The notes beneath the pieces are model-generated. The model had not been told where the DNA came from. It saw only the letters and a list, made by a program, of their open reading frames with translations, and did no database searches. Shown piece by piece: positions 10,012 to 13,058 of a stretch of 58,198 bases of DNA. Location of the stretch: the NCBI RefSeq assembly GCF_003853705.1, contig NZ_QTQI01000038.1:1-58198 (forward strand), written 5' to 3'. The position numbers and the translations under genes were made by a program. Position 1 is the first letter of the stretch. Every line of letters begins with the position of its first letter. Origin of the DNA: Burkholderia sp. Bp8992. Lineage in GTDB: Bacteria > Pseudomonadota > Gammaproteobacteria > Burkholderiales > Burkholderiaceae.

Positions 10012-10290
10012 ATGTTGAACTGGATCAGCCGTTGGGCGATGCGACACGCCCCCACGCCGGAAAAAACCGCTGCGTCGATGCTCGTGACGGCGCGCATGGA
10101 ACTGTTCGCAGCCGAACAGCGCGTCATCGATGCGAAATTACAAGCGGATTACTGGCGTACACGAGTGTCATTCCTCGAAGAGGTGCAGAAGCAGGGCATC
10201 GATCCGTGGGTGACCTCGCAGGCAGCGCAACGTCCCGACCTCGATTCCACTCCCCGGAGCACGGGCCCGCGTCTCGCCGCCAGCACCTGA
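10012..10290 (+). CDS. Hypothetical protein with central coiled-coil-like helix (92 aa)
   Basis: The 92-residue protein begins MLNWISRWAMRHAPTPEKTA after a clear GGAGG Shine-Dalgarno sequence. The middle part (about 20-62, ASMLVTARMELFAAEQRVID and on to WRTRVSFLEEVQKQG) is an uninterrupted amphipathic helix with heptad spacing. The tail is Pro/Ser/Thr-rich. There are no cysteines, signal peptide or catalytic motif. It resembles small Burkholderia proteins of unknown function. It converges on the first DUF2917 gene. Confidence 0.7.
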   Translation: MLNWISRWAMRHAPTPEKTAASMLVTARMELFAAEQRVIDAKLQADYWRTRVSFLEEVQKQGIDPWVTSQAAQRPDLDSTPRSTGPRLAAST

Positions 10291-10450
10291 TGCACGCACT
10301 GCATCCGGTCGTTGCGCACGGCGCGCGATCGCTCGCGGCACGCACTTGCGTGCCGCGGCATTCGATGCGCACCTGCGGCGTGCTGCGCCGCGGGTGCGTC
10401 TGTTTCCGGTCGCGGCCGTTCCGCGTCTCGCGTGCTTGACGGCACGTCGC

Positions 10451-10825
10451 TCATCCGCTGCTTCTCCCTACCCCGACGAGCAAACGTTGCACTTGCGCGA
10501 GCGCGCGCCTGAAGCGCTCGCCGCGGCGCACGTACGCGGTCGTGATCGTCGCTTCAGCCGATCGGTCGGCATCGGTGCCGATCCAGATGCGCTCGCCGCG
10601 CGCGATGCGCAGCACGTCGCCGGGGCGCACCCAGTCATCGTCGACGCTTGGCGGGCGCGTGACCCACAGCGCCGCGCCATGCGTGCGGAGCTCCGCATCC
10701 TGCGGCGCGCGCCAGGTCATCGTCGTGCGCGGCGCGACCGCGAAACGGATCACGACAGTCGGTAGTGCGATCGTGCCGGTGCGGCGCCGATCGGGACGGT
10801 CAAACAGCTGGCTTGCCTGGTCCAT
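10451..10825 (-). CDS. DUF2917-family protein, copy 1
   Basis: The 124-residue protein (MDQASQLFDRPDRRRTG...) has the DUF2917 core: a beta-rich segment with TMTWRAPQDAELRTHGAALW, then a WVRPGDVLRIARGERIWIGT motif and a basic C-terminus. DUF2917 proteins are small, cupin-like in pattern and uncharacterised. The second of two nearby ATGs (10825) was chosen because GGAGA lies at ideal distance; an ATG four codons earlier overlaps that site. It is paralogous to 11167-11535 and preceded by a terminator hairpin, a 28-codon leader frame and a TTGACA/CAAAAT promoter, suggesting control by attenuation. Confidence 0.82.
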   Translation of the reverse strand: MDQASQLFDRPDRRRTGTIALPTVVIRFAVAPRTTMTWRAPQDAELRTHGAALWVTRPPSVDDDWVRPGDVLRIARGERIWIGTDADRSAEATITTAYVRRGERFRRALAQVQRLLVGVGRSSG

Positions 10826-10868
10826 CGTCTTCTCCATTCAGTGAGCCGGACGGATGACGCGCACCAGA

Positions 10869-10946
10869 ACAAAAAGGCCTCATCCGTTTCCGGCGAGGCC
10901 TTGTGTGACATGCGGTACTGCTCGATTGCTAACGCACAAGCGCCTC
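10869..10946 (-). promoter_or_regulatory. Attenuator (terminator and antiterminator) before DUF2917 copy 1
   Basis: On the minus strand AAGGCCTC (complement of 10895-10902) pairs with GAGGCCTT (10874-10881) and is followed by a T run: an intrinsic terminator lying before the gene, not after it. The upstream arm, extended as CACAAGGCCTC (10895-10905), can instead pair with GAGGCGCTTGTG (10935-10946) in the end of the leader frame, leaving a single bulged G. The two pairings are mutually exclusive, as in classical transcription attenuation. Confidence 0.6.
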
Positions 10947-11015
10947 CCGTGAATCATTCTTTCGAATGTTCATCGAGCAATGAATCGCGACGGCGATGAG
11001 CTTGAACGTAGGCAT
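10929..11015 (-). CDS. Putative 28-codon leader ORF, copy 1
   Basis: The frame starts ATGCCTACGTTC (MPTFKLIAVA...), has 28 codons and ends ...EALVR-TAG. The paralogous region (11639-11725) has a frame with the same start (MP), exactly the same length and the same ending ALVR-TAG despite a divergent middle. The ATG lies seven bases after the -10 hexamer, so the mRNA may start at or next to the initiation codon and be leaderless. Translation of its last codons would cover the antiterminator strand. No run of a single amino acid is seen. Confidence 0.45.
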   Translation of the reverse strand: MPTFKLIAVAIHCSMNIRKNDSREALVR

Positions 11016-11022
11016 GCGAACG

Positions 11023-11051
11023 ATTTTGTTGTCGGGCTGCGGTGTTGTCAA
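11023..11051 (-). promoter_or_regulatory. Promoter of DUF2917 copy 1 leader
   Basis: On the minus strand TTGACA (11046-11051, perfect consensus) and CAAAAT (11023-11028) are spaced 17 bp apart. The equivalent elements in the duplicated region are TTGACA and CACACT at the same spacing. The predicted start falls at or just before the leader ATG at 11015. Confidence 0.65.
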
Positions 11052-11166
11052 CGACAATTTTCGGGAGATGCGCGGGCGATACGTTGCCGCGCGCGTGCTG
11101 CGTTTCATGAGGGCGCTGCGCACGCGAGTCGAGCGCGCAGCGATGCAAGGTGCGTCACGCGGGACG

Positions 11167-11535
11167 TCATCGACATCGTTCGCCCAGCATCGTGCGCAGC
11201 TGCGCGAGCGCACGCGCAAGCCACGCGTCGCGTTTCATCAGGTACGCAGTCGTGATCGACGCTGCGGCGGGCCGCTCGTCGTCGGTGCTGATCCAGATGC
11301 GATCGCCGCGCTGCACGCGCAGCACGTCGCCGGTTCGAATCCAGTAATCGTCGATGCTGCCCAGCCGCGTGATCCACAGCGTCGCATCGTGCACGCGGAT
11401 CTCGGCGTCGTGCTGGGCACGCCACGCCAGCGTCCTGCGCGGCGCGACCGTGAAATGCAGCTCGACTCTCGGCAATGCGATTGCGTCGGTGCGGCACCGA
11501 TCGCGACAAACAACCAGCCGGCTTGCTTGGTCCAT
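11167..11535 (-). CDS. DUF2917-family protein, copy 2
   Basis: This 122-residue paralogue of 10451-10825 starts MDQASRLVVCRDRCRTDAIA and shares the core TLAWRAQHDAEIRVHDATLW and WIRTGDVLRVQRGDRIWIST motifs, with an overall pattern of alternating beta strands. The start was chosen by the GGAGA site upstream of the ATG at 11535. It has its own promoter, leader frame and terminator/antiterminator. The region between the two copies shows no other gene. Tandem duplication including control DNA suggests dosage or differential-control importance. The biochemical function is unknown. Confidence 0.82.
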   Translation of the reverse strand: MDQASRLVVCRDRCRTDAIALPRVELHFTVAPRRTLAWRAQHDAEIRVHDATLWITRLGSIDDYWIRTGDVLRVQRGDRIWISTDDERPAAASITTAYLMKRDAWLARALAQLRTMLGERCR

Positions 11536-11579
11536 CGTCATCTCCATCCGTTGAGCCGGGCGGGATGACGCGCACCAAA

Positions 11580-11656
11580 ACAAAAGGCCTCATCCGTTTC
11601 CGGCGAGGCCTTGTGACATGCGCAACTGAATCTCGATGCTAACGCACAAGCGCCCC
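11580..11656 (-). promoter_or_regulatory. Attenuator (terminator and antiterminator) before DUF2917 copy 2
   Basis: The terminator stem AAGGCCTC/GAGGCCTT (11605-11612 with 11584-11591) is followed by TTGTTTTG on the minus strand. The alternative pairing uses CACAAGGCCTC (11605-11615) and GGGGCGCTTGTG (11645-11656). Relative to copy 1, one A-U pair becomes G-U, so pairing is kept while sequence drifts. Position and spacing match copy 1. Confidence 0.6.
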
Positions 11657-11725
11657 CGGTGATCGCCACGCATGGGCGTTCACTCGTGTTTTATGCGCGA
11701 TGGCGTTGGGCTTGAGCATAGGCAT
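11639..11725 (-). CDS. Putative 28-codon leader ORF, copy 2
   Basis: The frame starts MPMLKPNAIA and ends GALVR-TAG after 28 codons, the same length and termini as copy 1 (10929-11015). First and last codons are conserved at DNA level while the middle is largely different without any net length change. It begins seven bases after the -10 hexamer. Its last codons form the antiterminator strand of the attenuator at 11580-11656. Confidence 0.45.
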   Translation of the reverse strand: MPMLKPNAIAHKTRVNAHAWRSPGALVR

Positions 11726-11732
11726 GCGAACG

Positions 11733-11761
11733 AGTGTGTCGTGGCGGCGCGGCGCTGTCAA
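11733..11761 (-). promoter_or_regulatory. Promoter of DUF2917 copy 2 leader
   Basis: On the minus strand TTGACA (11756-11761) and CACACT (11733-11738) are spaced 17 bp apart. The -35 is perfect; the -10 is weaker than CAAAAT of copy 1, which may make the two paralogues differ in strength. It lies immediately downstream of the 95-aa gene's stop codon. Confidence 0.5.
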
Positions 11762-11785
11762 CGGAAATTTCGAGATACGTGGCGG

Positions 11786-12073
11786 TTACGCGTCGCGTTG
11801 CGCGAGGCCGTTCACGAGCAGCTCGGACAGCAGGCCGGTCATGCCTTCCGGGTGCGTGGCCGCACGCGCCTTCAGCTGTTCGACGAGCTCGGCGTTGAGC
11901 TTGCACGCGAACGGCACGAGGCCCTGTTCCTGGTCGAGCTTGCGCTGCGCGCGGCGGTCCAGCTTGACCGCTTCTTCGGCACCCTTGCCGAAACGCGCGG
12001 AGCCGGACTGCTTCATCGCGTGCGTCAGCTTGAGCGCCTTGTTCTTTTCGAGATCGGTTTTCTTCATGGCCAT
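11786..12073 (-). CDS. Hypothetical basic protein (95 aa), possibly ribbon-helix-helix-like
   Basis: The 95-residue lysine-rich protein begins MAMKKTDLEKNKALKLTHAM. Its C-terminal half (GLVPFACKLNAELVEQLKAR...GLLSELLVNGLAQ) resembles an antitoxin/ribbon-helix-helix arrangement of a short beta strand followed by two helices. No toxin gene is adjacent. Relatives in Burkholderia are annotated only as hypothetical. It lies upstream of the DUF2917 copy 2 promoter, with only about 25 bp between its stop and that -35 box. Confidence 0.65.
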   Translation of the reverse strand: MAMKKTDLEKNKALKLTHAMKQSGSARFGKGAEEAVKLDRRAQRKLDQEQGLVPFACKLNAELVEQLKARAATHPEGMTGLLSELLVNGLAQRDA

Positions 12074-12152
12074 CGCGGCACCTCCGGGAAATTGAAGCCG
12101 CGATTGTACGCATTTCGGCGGGCGCCGCCCGCCGAACCGGCCGGAAACGCGG

Positions 12153-13058
12153 TCAGGCGCCCTTCGTCGTGCCCCAGTTGCCGCCGTGCGCGGCCGCCTG
12201 CGCGGCCGGCGAGCGCGCGAGGTAGGCGAGCGCCTGCTCGGTCGAACCTTCGTGGTGCGGCGTATAGCCCGGCCTGAAATAGCGCAGCGCCGCGCCGATC
12301 ACCTTCCAGAACGACGGCAGGTGCCCGCGTCGCGAACCCTGCCACCACGCGCGCACGAAGCCCGGATAGCGGCCGGCGTCCGGGTCGCGCCGGTACATGA
12401 ACTTCGCGCCGGTCGTGATGTAGTAGAGCAGCAGCAGGATCACGAACGCCATGTGCACGCAGCGCTCCGGATAGTTGCCGCCCAGGTGCCGGTAGATGTC
12501 GAACGCGACGGTGCGGTGCTCGACTTCCTCGGCGCCGTGCCAGCGCAGCAGGTCGACCATCGTCGGGTCGGCACGGCCTTCGTCGAGCCCGTGCGCGTTG
12601 AGCACCCAGTTGCCGAGATAGCCGAAGAAGTGCTCGAGCGACGCGATGACGGCCAGCTGCTGCCGCAGCCAGAAGCGCGTATGGCCGATCTTCAGCCCGA
12701 GCGGCTGCTCGCCGAGCACGCGCGTGAAGAGGCGGTTGAGCTTCTGCGTGAACGGCTTCGTGTCGATCCCATGCCGGTCGTAGTAGTGCTTCAGCACGCC
12801 GCCGTGCGAGCGTGAATGCACGGCTTCCTGGCGCAGGAAGCCTTCGGCCTCGTCGCGCAGGCGCGCATCGGTGATCAGCGGCAGCGCCTTGTTGTACACG
12901 CGGCAGAACCACAGCTCGCCTTCCGGGAACAGCAGGTTCAGCGTGTTGATGATGTGCGTGCTGCCCGGATCGTTCGGCACCCAGGTAATCGGCGTGTCGC
13001 TGAAGTCGAACTTCACGTGCCGGGCCTTGATCTTGTGATAGTCGGCGGTATCGGTCAT
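12153..13058 (-). CDS. PF10118-type metal-dependent hydrolase-like protein
   Basis: The 301-residue protein carries carboxylate-histidine motifs: FLRQEAVHSRSH (ExxH), ASLEHFFGYL and HGAEEVEHRTVAFD (EExEH). This arrangement resembles a di-iron ferritin-like helical bundle, and proteins of this family (PF10118) are annotated as predicted metal-dependent hydrolases. A hydrophobic segment (MAFVILLLLYYITTG) suggests membrane association. It is the last gene of a minus-strand set M24 peptidase - hydrolase/SDR fusion - this gene, with a 29-bp gap, so very probably one operon. The substrate is unknown; a lipid-related desaturase or oxygenase role is my inference. Confidence 0.78.
   Translation of the reverse strand: MTDTADYHKIKARHVKFDFSDTPITWVPNDPGSTHIINTLNLLFPEGELWFCRVYNKALPLITDARLRDEAEGFLRQEAVHSRSHGGVLKHYYDRHGIDTKPFTQKLNRLFTRVLGEQPLGLKIGHTRFWLRQQLAVIASLEHFFGYLGNWVLNAHGLDEGRADPTMVDLLRWHGAEEVEHRTVAFDIYRHLGGNYPERCVHMAFVILLLLYYITTGAKFMYRRDPDAGRYPGFVRAWWQGSRRGHLPSFWKVIGAALRYFRPGYTPHHEGSTEQALAYLARSPAAQAAAHGGNWGTTKGA

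Follow-up and report, generated by a model that had tools for sequence, protein, structure and literature searches.

The stretch analysed here, called the window, comprises 58,198 nucleotides of a contig from Burkholderia sp. Bp8992, and it carries two tandem modules on its minus strand, each of which ends in a gene of the DUF2917 family (Table 1). The parts come in the same order in both copies: TTGACA, a 17-nt spacer, a weak -10, 7 nt, an ATG, 28 codons and TAG, followed after about 23 nt by CACAAGGCCTC, which runs into an intrinsic terminator, and then by the DUF2917 gene. A first-pass annotation had already described this order, and its coordinates and pairings were right for both copies, as was the start of the frame seven bases after the -10 (CAAAAT and CACACT, respectively). 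It had also proposed that CACAAGGCCTC pairs with the last codons of the leader, with one A-U becoming G-U in copy 2, and the pairing is as claimed, with one bulged G in addition. The start codon of the copy 1 gene is probably the ATG at 10825, behind GGAGA.

Table 1. Parts of the two modules in the window, numbered from its first nucleotide.
Feature	Position	Strand	Remark
Copy 1, -35 TTGACA (predicted)	11046..11051	-	Same hexamer in 92/93 relatives with promoter and start
Copy 1, -10 CAAAAT, weak (predicted)	11023..11028	-	17 nt from -35; 7 nt to ATG
Copy 1, leader ORF, 28 codons + TAG, MPTFKLIAVAIHCSMNIRKNDSREALVR	10929..11015	-	Frame kept in relatives
Copy 1, P1 stem closing the three-way junction with P2 and P3	10932..11009	-	Fold and covariation; sequesters the antiterminator strand
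Copy 1, antiterminator 5' strand, GAGGCGCTTGTG	10935..10946	-	Equivalent pairing in relatives
Copy 1, antiterminator 3' strand = terminator 5' arm, CACAAGGCCTC	10895..10905	-	
Copy 1, intrinsic terminator	10871..10902	-	End about 10871
Copy 1, DUF2917 gene	10451..10837	-	Pfam DUF2917 E 3.5e-12; cupin-like model
Copy 2, -35 TTGACA (predicted)	11756..11761	-	
Copy 2, -10 CACACT, weak (predicted)	11733..11738	-	7 nt to ATG
Copy 2, leader ORF, 28 codons + TAG, MPMLKPNAIAHKTRVNAHAWRSPGALVR	11639..11725	-	
Copy 2, antiterminator 5' strand, GGGGCGCTTGTG	11645..11656	-	
Copy 2, antiterminator 3' strand = terminator 5' arm, CACAAGGCCTC	11605..11615	-	
Copy 2, intrinsic terminator	11581..11612	-	End about 11581
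Copy 2, DUF2917 gene	11167..11541	-	Pfam E 6.5e-16

With at most one mismatch, CACAAGGCCTC is found at four sites in the window, against a mean of 0.63 in 100 shuffles. The two exact sites by themselves could be accounted for by tandem duplication, and the weight of the evidence comes from relatives. The closest comparison genome has 30% of the window's sampled words in common. The leader RNAs of both copies fold better than their shuffles (z -3.3 and -2.1). Two other frames border the modules. On the plus strand, a 92-aa open frame at 10012-10290 is convergent with the DUF2917 genes and gave no Pfam or NCBIfam match, and just upstream of copy 2, at 11786-12073 on the minus strand, a protein of 95 aa is encoded whose NCBIfam match, to a LexA regulated protein, is weak and stays below threshold.

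Both window genes score above the curated cut-off of DUF2917 (PF11142). The predicted structure, whose mean pLDDT of 75 rises to about 90 in the core, is an all-beta domain followed by a C-terminal helix. Cupins are among the best fold matches of this model, with E-values of about 1e-5 to 2e-4 and a query TM of about 0.46-0.65, other folds, e.g. a vitamin K carboxylase domain, scoring like the cupins. The model is consistent with a cupin-like fold. No histidine is invariant in the DUF2917 alignment, which makes it doubtful that these proteins bind metal as cupins usually do. The best sequence match to a solved structure had an E-value of 0.012 and was dismissed as not meaningful.

DUF2917 is present in 60 of the 61 sampled genomes of the genus, mostly as several paralogues, and in one example genome (G002) one of the three paralogues, on contig 2, has a leader nearby. 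When the best 80 of 104 relatives were taken as named loci, the leader was found upstream in all 80, which by their record titles span the genera Burkholderia, Paraburkholderia, Caballeronia, Trinickia and Pararobbsia and hold 94 leaders in total; the closest relative of the copy 1 gene among them is from Burkholderia sp. MS389 (98% identity), and Paraburkholderia xenovorans LB400 has the element at locus L284. A covariance model built from 32 Burkholderia leaders has matches in 108 of 299 genomes of the family and in 9 of its 25 genera at E 0.001, the weak ones including leaders of a threonine type that are discussed below. The module had been described as occurring twice; both copies are real, yet they are not a local pair, and the element is deeply conserved, family-wide and found before other genes as well.

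Farther away the matches are few. The covariance model R2, built from 34 non-redundant leaders, has matches in 18 of 399 genomes of the order, and outside the family of the window its E-value falls below 1e-7 solely at the threonine leader L165 (f5), with L169-L178 and L182 lying outside the loci inspected; L166 (f5) is likewise a threonine leader. L167 and L168 were rejected as full elements, their sequences looking like terminators only. Thirteen weak R2 matches on the minus strand (E 0.001-0.009, mostly at about 1430-1535, over the terminator and the gene start; L244, L245, L248, L252, L254, L256, L257, L263, L264, L266, L267, L276 and L289) probably reflect the symmetry of the terminator and were set aside from the counts of named loci. 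As to how the leaders were gathered, the first Burkholderia set was collected by a motif that includes the stop codon, and later sets came from searches with a covariance model or with the protein, the models themselves being built from earlier members; the named set overlaps the genomes used in model building. The 34 non-redundant leaders include seven that do not stand before DUF2917 (L102, L106, L112, L121, L129, L138 and L144). The leader counts exclude L140, L039 near 1049 and the threonine-type leaders L153-L157 and L160, and L139 is also outside the analysis.

The first-pass annotation had proposed looking in related genomes for a conserved leader frame and for covariation of the stems, and both are there. 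In 92 of the 94 named leaders the ATG is kept and opens a frame that runs for 26-34 codons before it meets a stop in the usual position or close to it; in L246 and L275 the stop codon lies some codons beyond that position. A -35 and an ATG are present together in 93 of the 94, the hexamer being TTGACA in 92 and TTGACG in one, and the distance from the start of the -35 to the ATG is 35, 36 or 37 nt in 2, 66 and 25 of them, which puts the ATG about 6-7 nt after a -10 resembling CACACT or CAAACT. None of these 93 leaders has a Shine-Dalgarno match. Among the 34 non-redundant leaders no in-frame stop interrupts the claimed frame, compared with 27 and 18 leaders interrupted in the other two frames and 13.7 of 34 expected after dinucleotide shuffling. 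A MAFFT alignment of the 34, which is blind to frame, places net gaps of 3, 9, 15 or 18 bases in the ORF relative to the 28-codon form, and irregular gaps downstream of it; in two of the 34 the stop is TGA in place of TAG. In L240 a TTG stands where the ATG should be and the frame is otherwise open. The frame is lost by a shift in L274, of the named set, and also, as its sequence was read, in L195, which lies outside that set; both loci retain the RNA parts and the start of the downstream gene, and they are natural tests of whether translation matters.

The peptide itself shows no clear purifying selection. Its pN/pS reaches 1.75 among 41 distinct Burkholderia leaders, 0.85 among 16 of the Caballeronia type and 0.69 among 7 of the Paraburkholderia type, compared with 0.42 in ten DUF2917 genes. 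Peptide conservation was ruled out by these values as evidence of coding, and the evidence of frame was used in its place. A frame that is conserved together with a peptide that is conserved much less is the pattern expected from a device that positions a ribosome.

The same frame is also a structured RNA. It forms a three-way junction, in which P1 pairs the first with the last codons, P2 often reads AUCGC/GCGAU and has a loop that varies, and P3 is a long hairpin of the second half of the frame, although the minimum-energy folds of some individual leaders show fewer than all three stems. The alternative folds described earlier, antiterminator and terminator, were right, but the junction had been left out of that description. 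In an alignment of the 34 leaders 82.4% of the cells pair, compared with 76.5% after shuffling and 32-42% after sliding; there are 84 cells with compensatory double changes against 33 in shuffled alignments, and a covariation score of 0.250 against 0.156 that none of 500 shuffles reached. The structure was derived from this same alignment, and the pairing counts favour it for that reason.

An alignment-free swap test, in which the pairing of each leader's own strand was compared with that of strands from other leaders over 20,000 permutations, phylogeny being ignored, gave 8 permutations reaching the native value for P1 and none for P3, the antiterminator and the terminator, with three control pairings non-significant (z +0.6, -0.5 and -0.6). 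With 27 non-redundant named leaders the numbers were 78 of 20,000 for P1, 0 for P3 and 9 for the antiterminator, and two control pairings gave z -1.1 and -1.2. Terminator, antiterminator, P1 and P3 thus covary in related genomes. Per locus the antiterminator signal is modest: no foreign strand pairs as well as a leader's own in just 3 of the 34, on average 35% of foreign leaders pair equally well, and in L104, L106 and L144 the pairing is worse than in shuffled leaders. The letters differ between groups, GAGGC.CUUGUG with CACAAGGCCUC in Burkholderia, GGCC.UUGGG with CCCAAGGCC in the Paraburkholderia type and GGGUC.UCGGGA with UUCCGA.GGCCC in the Caballeronia type. An initial RNAalifold consensus from close relatives (alignment A1) had suggested another pairing, for which support was poor (covariation term only -0.86), and was rejected; model R1, which rested on it, was superseded by alignment A2 and model R2 after wider sampling.

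A short conserved ORF after a promoter, an intrinsic terminator between leader and gene, a covarying antiterminator that excludes the terminator, and protector pairing by P1 and P3 are what one looks for in an attenuator, and all are found here. These parts, with their conservation, covariation and frame, can be read directly from the sequences. No Rfam 15 family, and no known riboswitch among them, reaches threshold on the window at 10300-12400 or on the element in the eight relatives scanned, where the only features to do so are the tRNA genes at L103.

How a ribosome might act on these folds was modelled by masking its footprint at successive codons of 36 leaders, both window copies included, and reading out the fraction of the terminator 5' arm that is paired with the leader at the point where the terminator is about to be completed; kinetics are ignored in this model. 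The median is 0.14 without a ribosome, which is low because the leader frame folds on itself, and it is 0.59-0.71 with the P site at codons 1-13, 0.47 and 0.40 at codons 15 and 17, 0.08-0.16 from codon 19 onward and 0.13 at the stop. Predicted readthrough thus depends on where the ribosome stands. The earlier proposal that a ribosome reaching the stop codon hides the antiterminator strand agrees with these medians, and so does the proposal that stalling favours readthrough, in so far as a ribosome early in the frame frees the antiterminator. That absent translation would likewise favour readthrough is unsupported for the family. The spread is considerable, the protector losing to the antiterminator (above 0.5) in 8 of the 36 unoccupied leaders, including both window copies, and the antiterminator staying above 0.5 with a ribosome at the stop in three (L141, L152 and window copy 2, at 0.54). 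For the window copies the model points both ways on absent translation: the truncated RNAs give 0.85 for copy 1 and 0.75 for copy 2, but at full length the terminated fold is the most stable, with -53.3 against -48.0 kcal/mol when the antiterminator is forced in copy 1 and -54.5 against -50.1 kcal/mol in copy 2. Since the two predictions conflict, the untranslated outcome in the window should depend on the speed of folding.

The same chassis stands before genes other than DUF2917. A redoxin gene follows it at L102 (619-766; by Pfam) and L201 (by reading), with His-rich leaders that contain the segments HHRPAHAH and RHHAHTHW, and GNAT acetyltransferase genes follow it at L106 and L129. At L112, L120 and L121 the leader precedes a short protein beginning MDERSP, which had no Pfam match in the one tested, that of L112. 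A similar His-rich leader is seen at L144, with a YunG-like frame downstream. Together with the Thr-run leaders described next, these loci suggest that the chassis moves between genes, and they support the idea of a device read by ribosomes.

A further group has runs of Thr codons in the leader (L153, L154, L165, L166, L202 and L204, and L155, L156, L160, L164, L180, L181, L183, L208 and L210) and stands before isochorismatase-like genes, by reading, and threonyl-tRNA-synthetase-like genes, by Pfam in the case of L156. Their ATG lies 35-37 nt after the -35, a spacing identical to that of the DUF2917 leaders in L153-L156, L160, L164-L166, L181 and L183, and several have ends of the GGSSG type that resemble those of DUF2917 leaders, but they differ by having evident Thr control codons and weaker model matches. 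They are probably Thr attenuators, and their likeness to the DUF2917 leaders is possibly convergent. The Threonine operon leader model of Rfam (RF00506) has no match in the window at 10300-12400 or in the DUF2917 loci scanned, and stays below threshold in both scanned Thr-run loci, L165 and L181, its one sub-threshold match being at L165. As internal controls for the mask model, three of four Thr leaders behave as predicted: the permissive window of L154, L155 and L160 covers the Thr codons or adjoins them. L156 fits less well, because its window is broad (codons 1-11) and the value at the stop is 0.60.

Taken as a whole, we consider it probable that the DUF2917 element attenuates transcription by means of a ribosome. 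Its leader ORF, which has no run of control codons, would be leaderless or nearly so. RNA polymerase would start at or just before the leader ATG, and a ribosome would bind at the 5' AUG with no Shine-Dalgarno sequence to guide it. If the frame is not translated, the three-way junction would hold the antiterminator strand and the terminator would form. A ribosome that lingers or stalls within roughly the first half of the frame, with its P site at codons 1-13 and ideally at about 9-13, would open P1 and P3, so that the end of the frame can pair with the 5' arm of the terminator and transcription continues into the DUF2917 gene, and a ribosome that has reached the leader stop would hide the antiterminator strand and transcription would end. 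We infer that translation starts at the AUG and that the switch operates in the cell, and the nature of its signal is likewise inferred.

Regarding that signal, codon positions 10-16 of 53 distinct 28-codon leaders are mostly A, I, a mix of H/K/N, P/R, V/M and N/R. The table of these positions shows no run of one control amino acid, and an amino-acid signal was rejected as no single codon is common to them. The most likely signal would be a slowing of elongation early in the frame, or slow decoding around codons 10-14. Our preferred guess is that the element senses slow early elongation or else the leaderless initiation as such, and it may also be a sensor of a single codon. It is tempting to go one step further, to a possibility that we hold to be rather doubtful: that the ribosome on the leaderless AUG is itself the sensor, its loading and slow early elongation turning on whatever gene lies downstream in an uncoded manner, and that the chassis has been passed among DUF2917, redoxin and GNAT genes, with Thr codons either gained, which would make it an amino-acid sensor, or lost.

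Much of the RNA evidence would also suit a riboswitch or a leader bound by protein, where the three-way junction is stabilised by a ligand and the frame is incidental: the junction covaries, the P2 stem recurs, the peptide is weakly conserved, and L274 and L195 have kept the RNA parts though the frame is lost. An incidental frame would however not be expected to keep its net gaps to multiples of three and be free of in-frame stops in 34 leaders, to retain its stop as TGA in two of them, or to begin at a constant spacing from the promoter. Comparable leaders that carry Thr runs stand before a threonyl-tRNA-synthetase-like gene, and the element matches no Rfam family at threshold, and we find such a switch unlikely.

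The strength of the terminator raises the question of whether the product is rather a terminated transcript of about 140 nt, or the 28-residue peptide, acting in trans with readthrough as a by-product. There is precedent in the rnTrpL and peTrpL of S. meliloti (PMC7298713), and many short 5'UTR RNAs are reported for B. cenocepacia in PMC5688073. The element nevertheless accompanies its gene at 80 of 80 loci (the best 80 of 104), a covarying antiterminator is sensible mainly for control in cis, and the peptide is hardly conserved, which makes a function in trans quite improbable. If the terminator were a constitutive and partial one, and the leader merely insulated or stabilised the mRNA, neither the missing control-codon run nor the 8 of 36 leaders that favour the antiterminator without a ribosome would be surprising. 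Such an arrangement does not call for a covarying antiterminator that is mutually exclusive with the terminator, or for modelled medians that change with the position of the ribosome, and we give it very little credence.

An attenuator that is read by ribosomes, as we prefer, resembles the classical trp, his and thr attenuators of Proteobacteria (PMC2965389) in its short ORF, its choice between protector, antiterminator and terminator, and its stop codon beside the antiterminator strand. It differs from them in that there is no run of a single amino acid, the start is leaderless or nearly so, the whole frame lies inside a three-way junction, and the gene is not known to be biosynthetic. In S. 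meliloti the attenuated rnTrpL transcript begins with the ATG of the leader ORF, according to PMC7298713, and shares this start with the DUF2917 element as proposed here; trpL is different in being a 14-aa Trp leader before trpE(G), and no sequence relation was seen. Leaders of the erm type sense slowed translation without amino-acid specificity or a run of control codons, as described in PMC2965389, and are a plausible model for the type of signal; the likeness ends there, as ermC controls translation and not termination.

For B. cenocepacia J2315, PMC4603805 reports leaderless transcripts, with 72 genes whose start site coincides exactly with the annotated start and a further 42 in which it lies within 10 nt, tRNAs making up 24 of the total, and PMC5688073 gives 82 short 5'UTR RNAs from processing or attenuation, in the Table S3 of which the 5'UTR of the element may be listed. 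Together with the S. meliloti attenuator, these leaderless transcripts and 5'UTR RNAs are precedents for the parts of the element. A candidate from 2010, 'Burkholderiales-1' (PMC2864571, where it has no Rfam number), may be identical with the element. No attenuator before DUF2917 is reported among the literature matches listed, one of which names DUF2917 itself; neither the combination of parts nor the family of DUF2917 elements was found there.

If the reading is right, there is a conserved attenuator family without an Rfam 15 match in bacteria where regulation in the 5' UTR is poorly catalogued, and it offers a handle on what the DUF2917 proteins respond to. Leaderless translation behaves differently under stress. 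The combination of leaderless initiation with attenuation would make leaderless translation testable as a sensor, and the Thr-run relatives provide a ready comparison between amino-acid-coded and uncoded versions on a similar chassis.

A diverged third copy is seen at L039, about 1049, and at L140. It starts with GTG and has kept the terminator, without a stop at the usual place; DUF2917 was sought directly behind it and not found, and a small secreted-looking protein lies farther downstream. Both are probably decaying copies.
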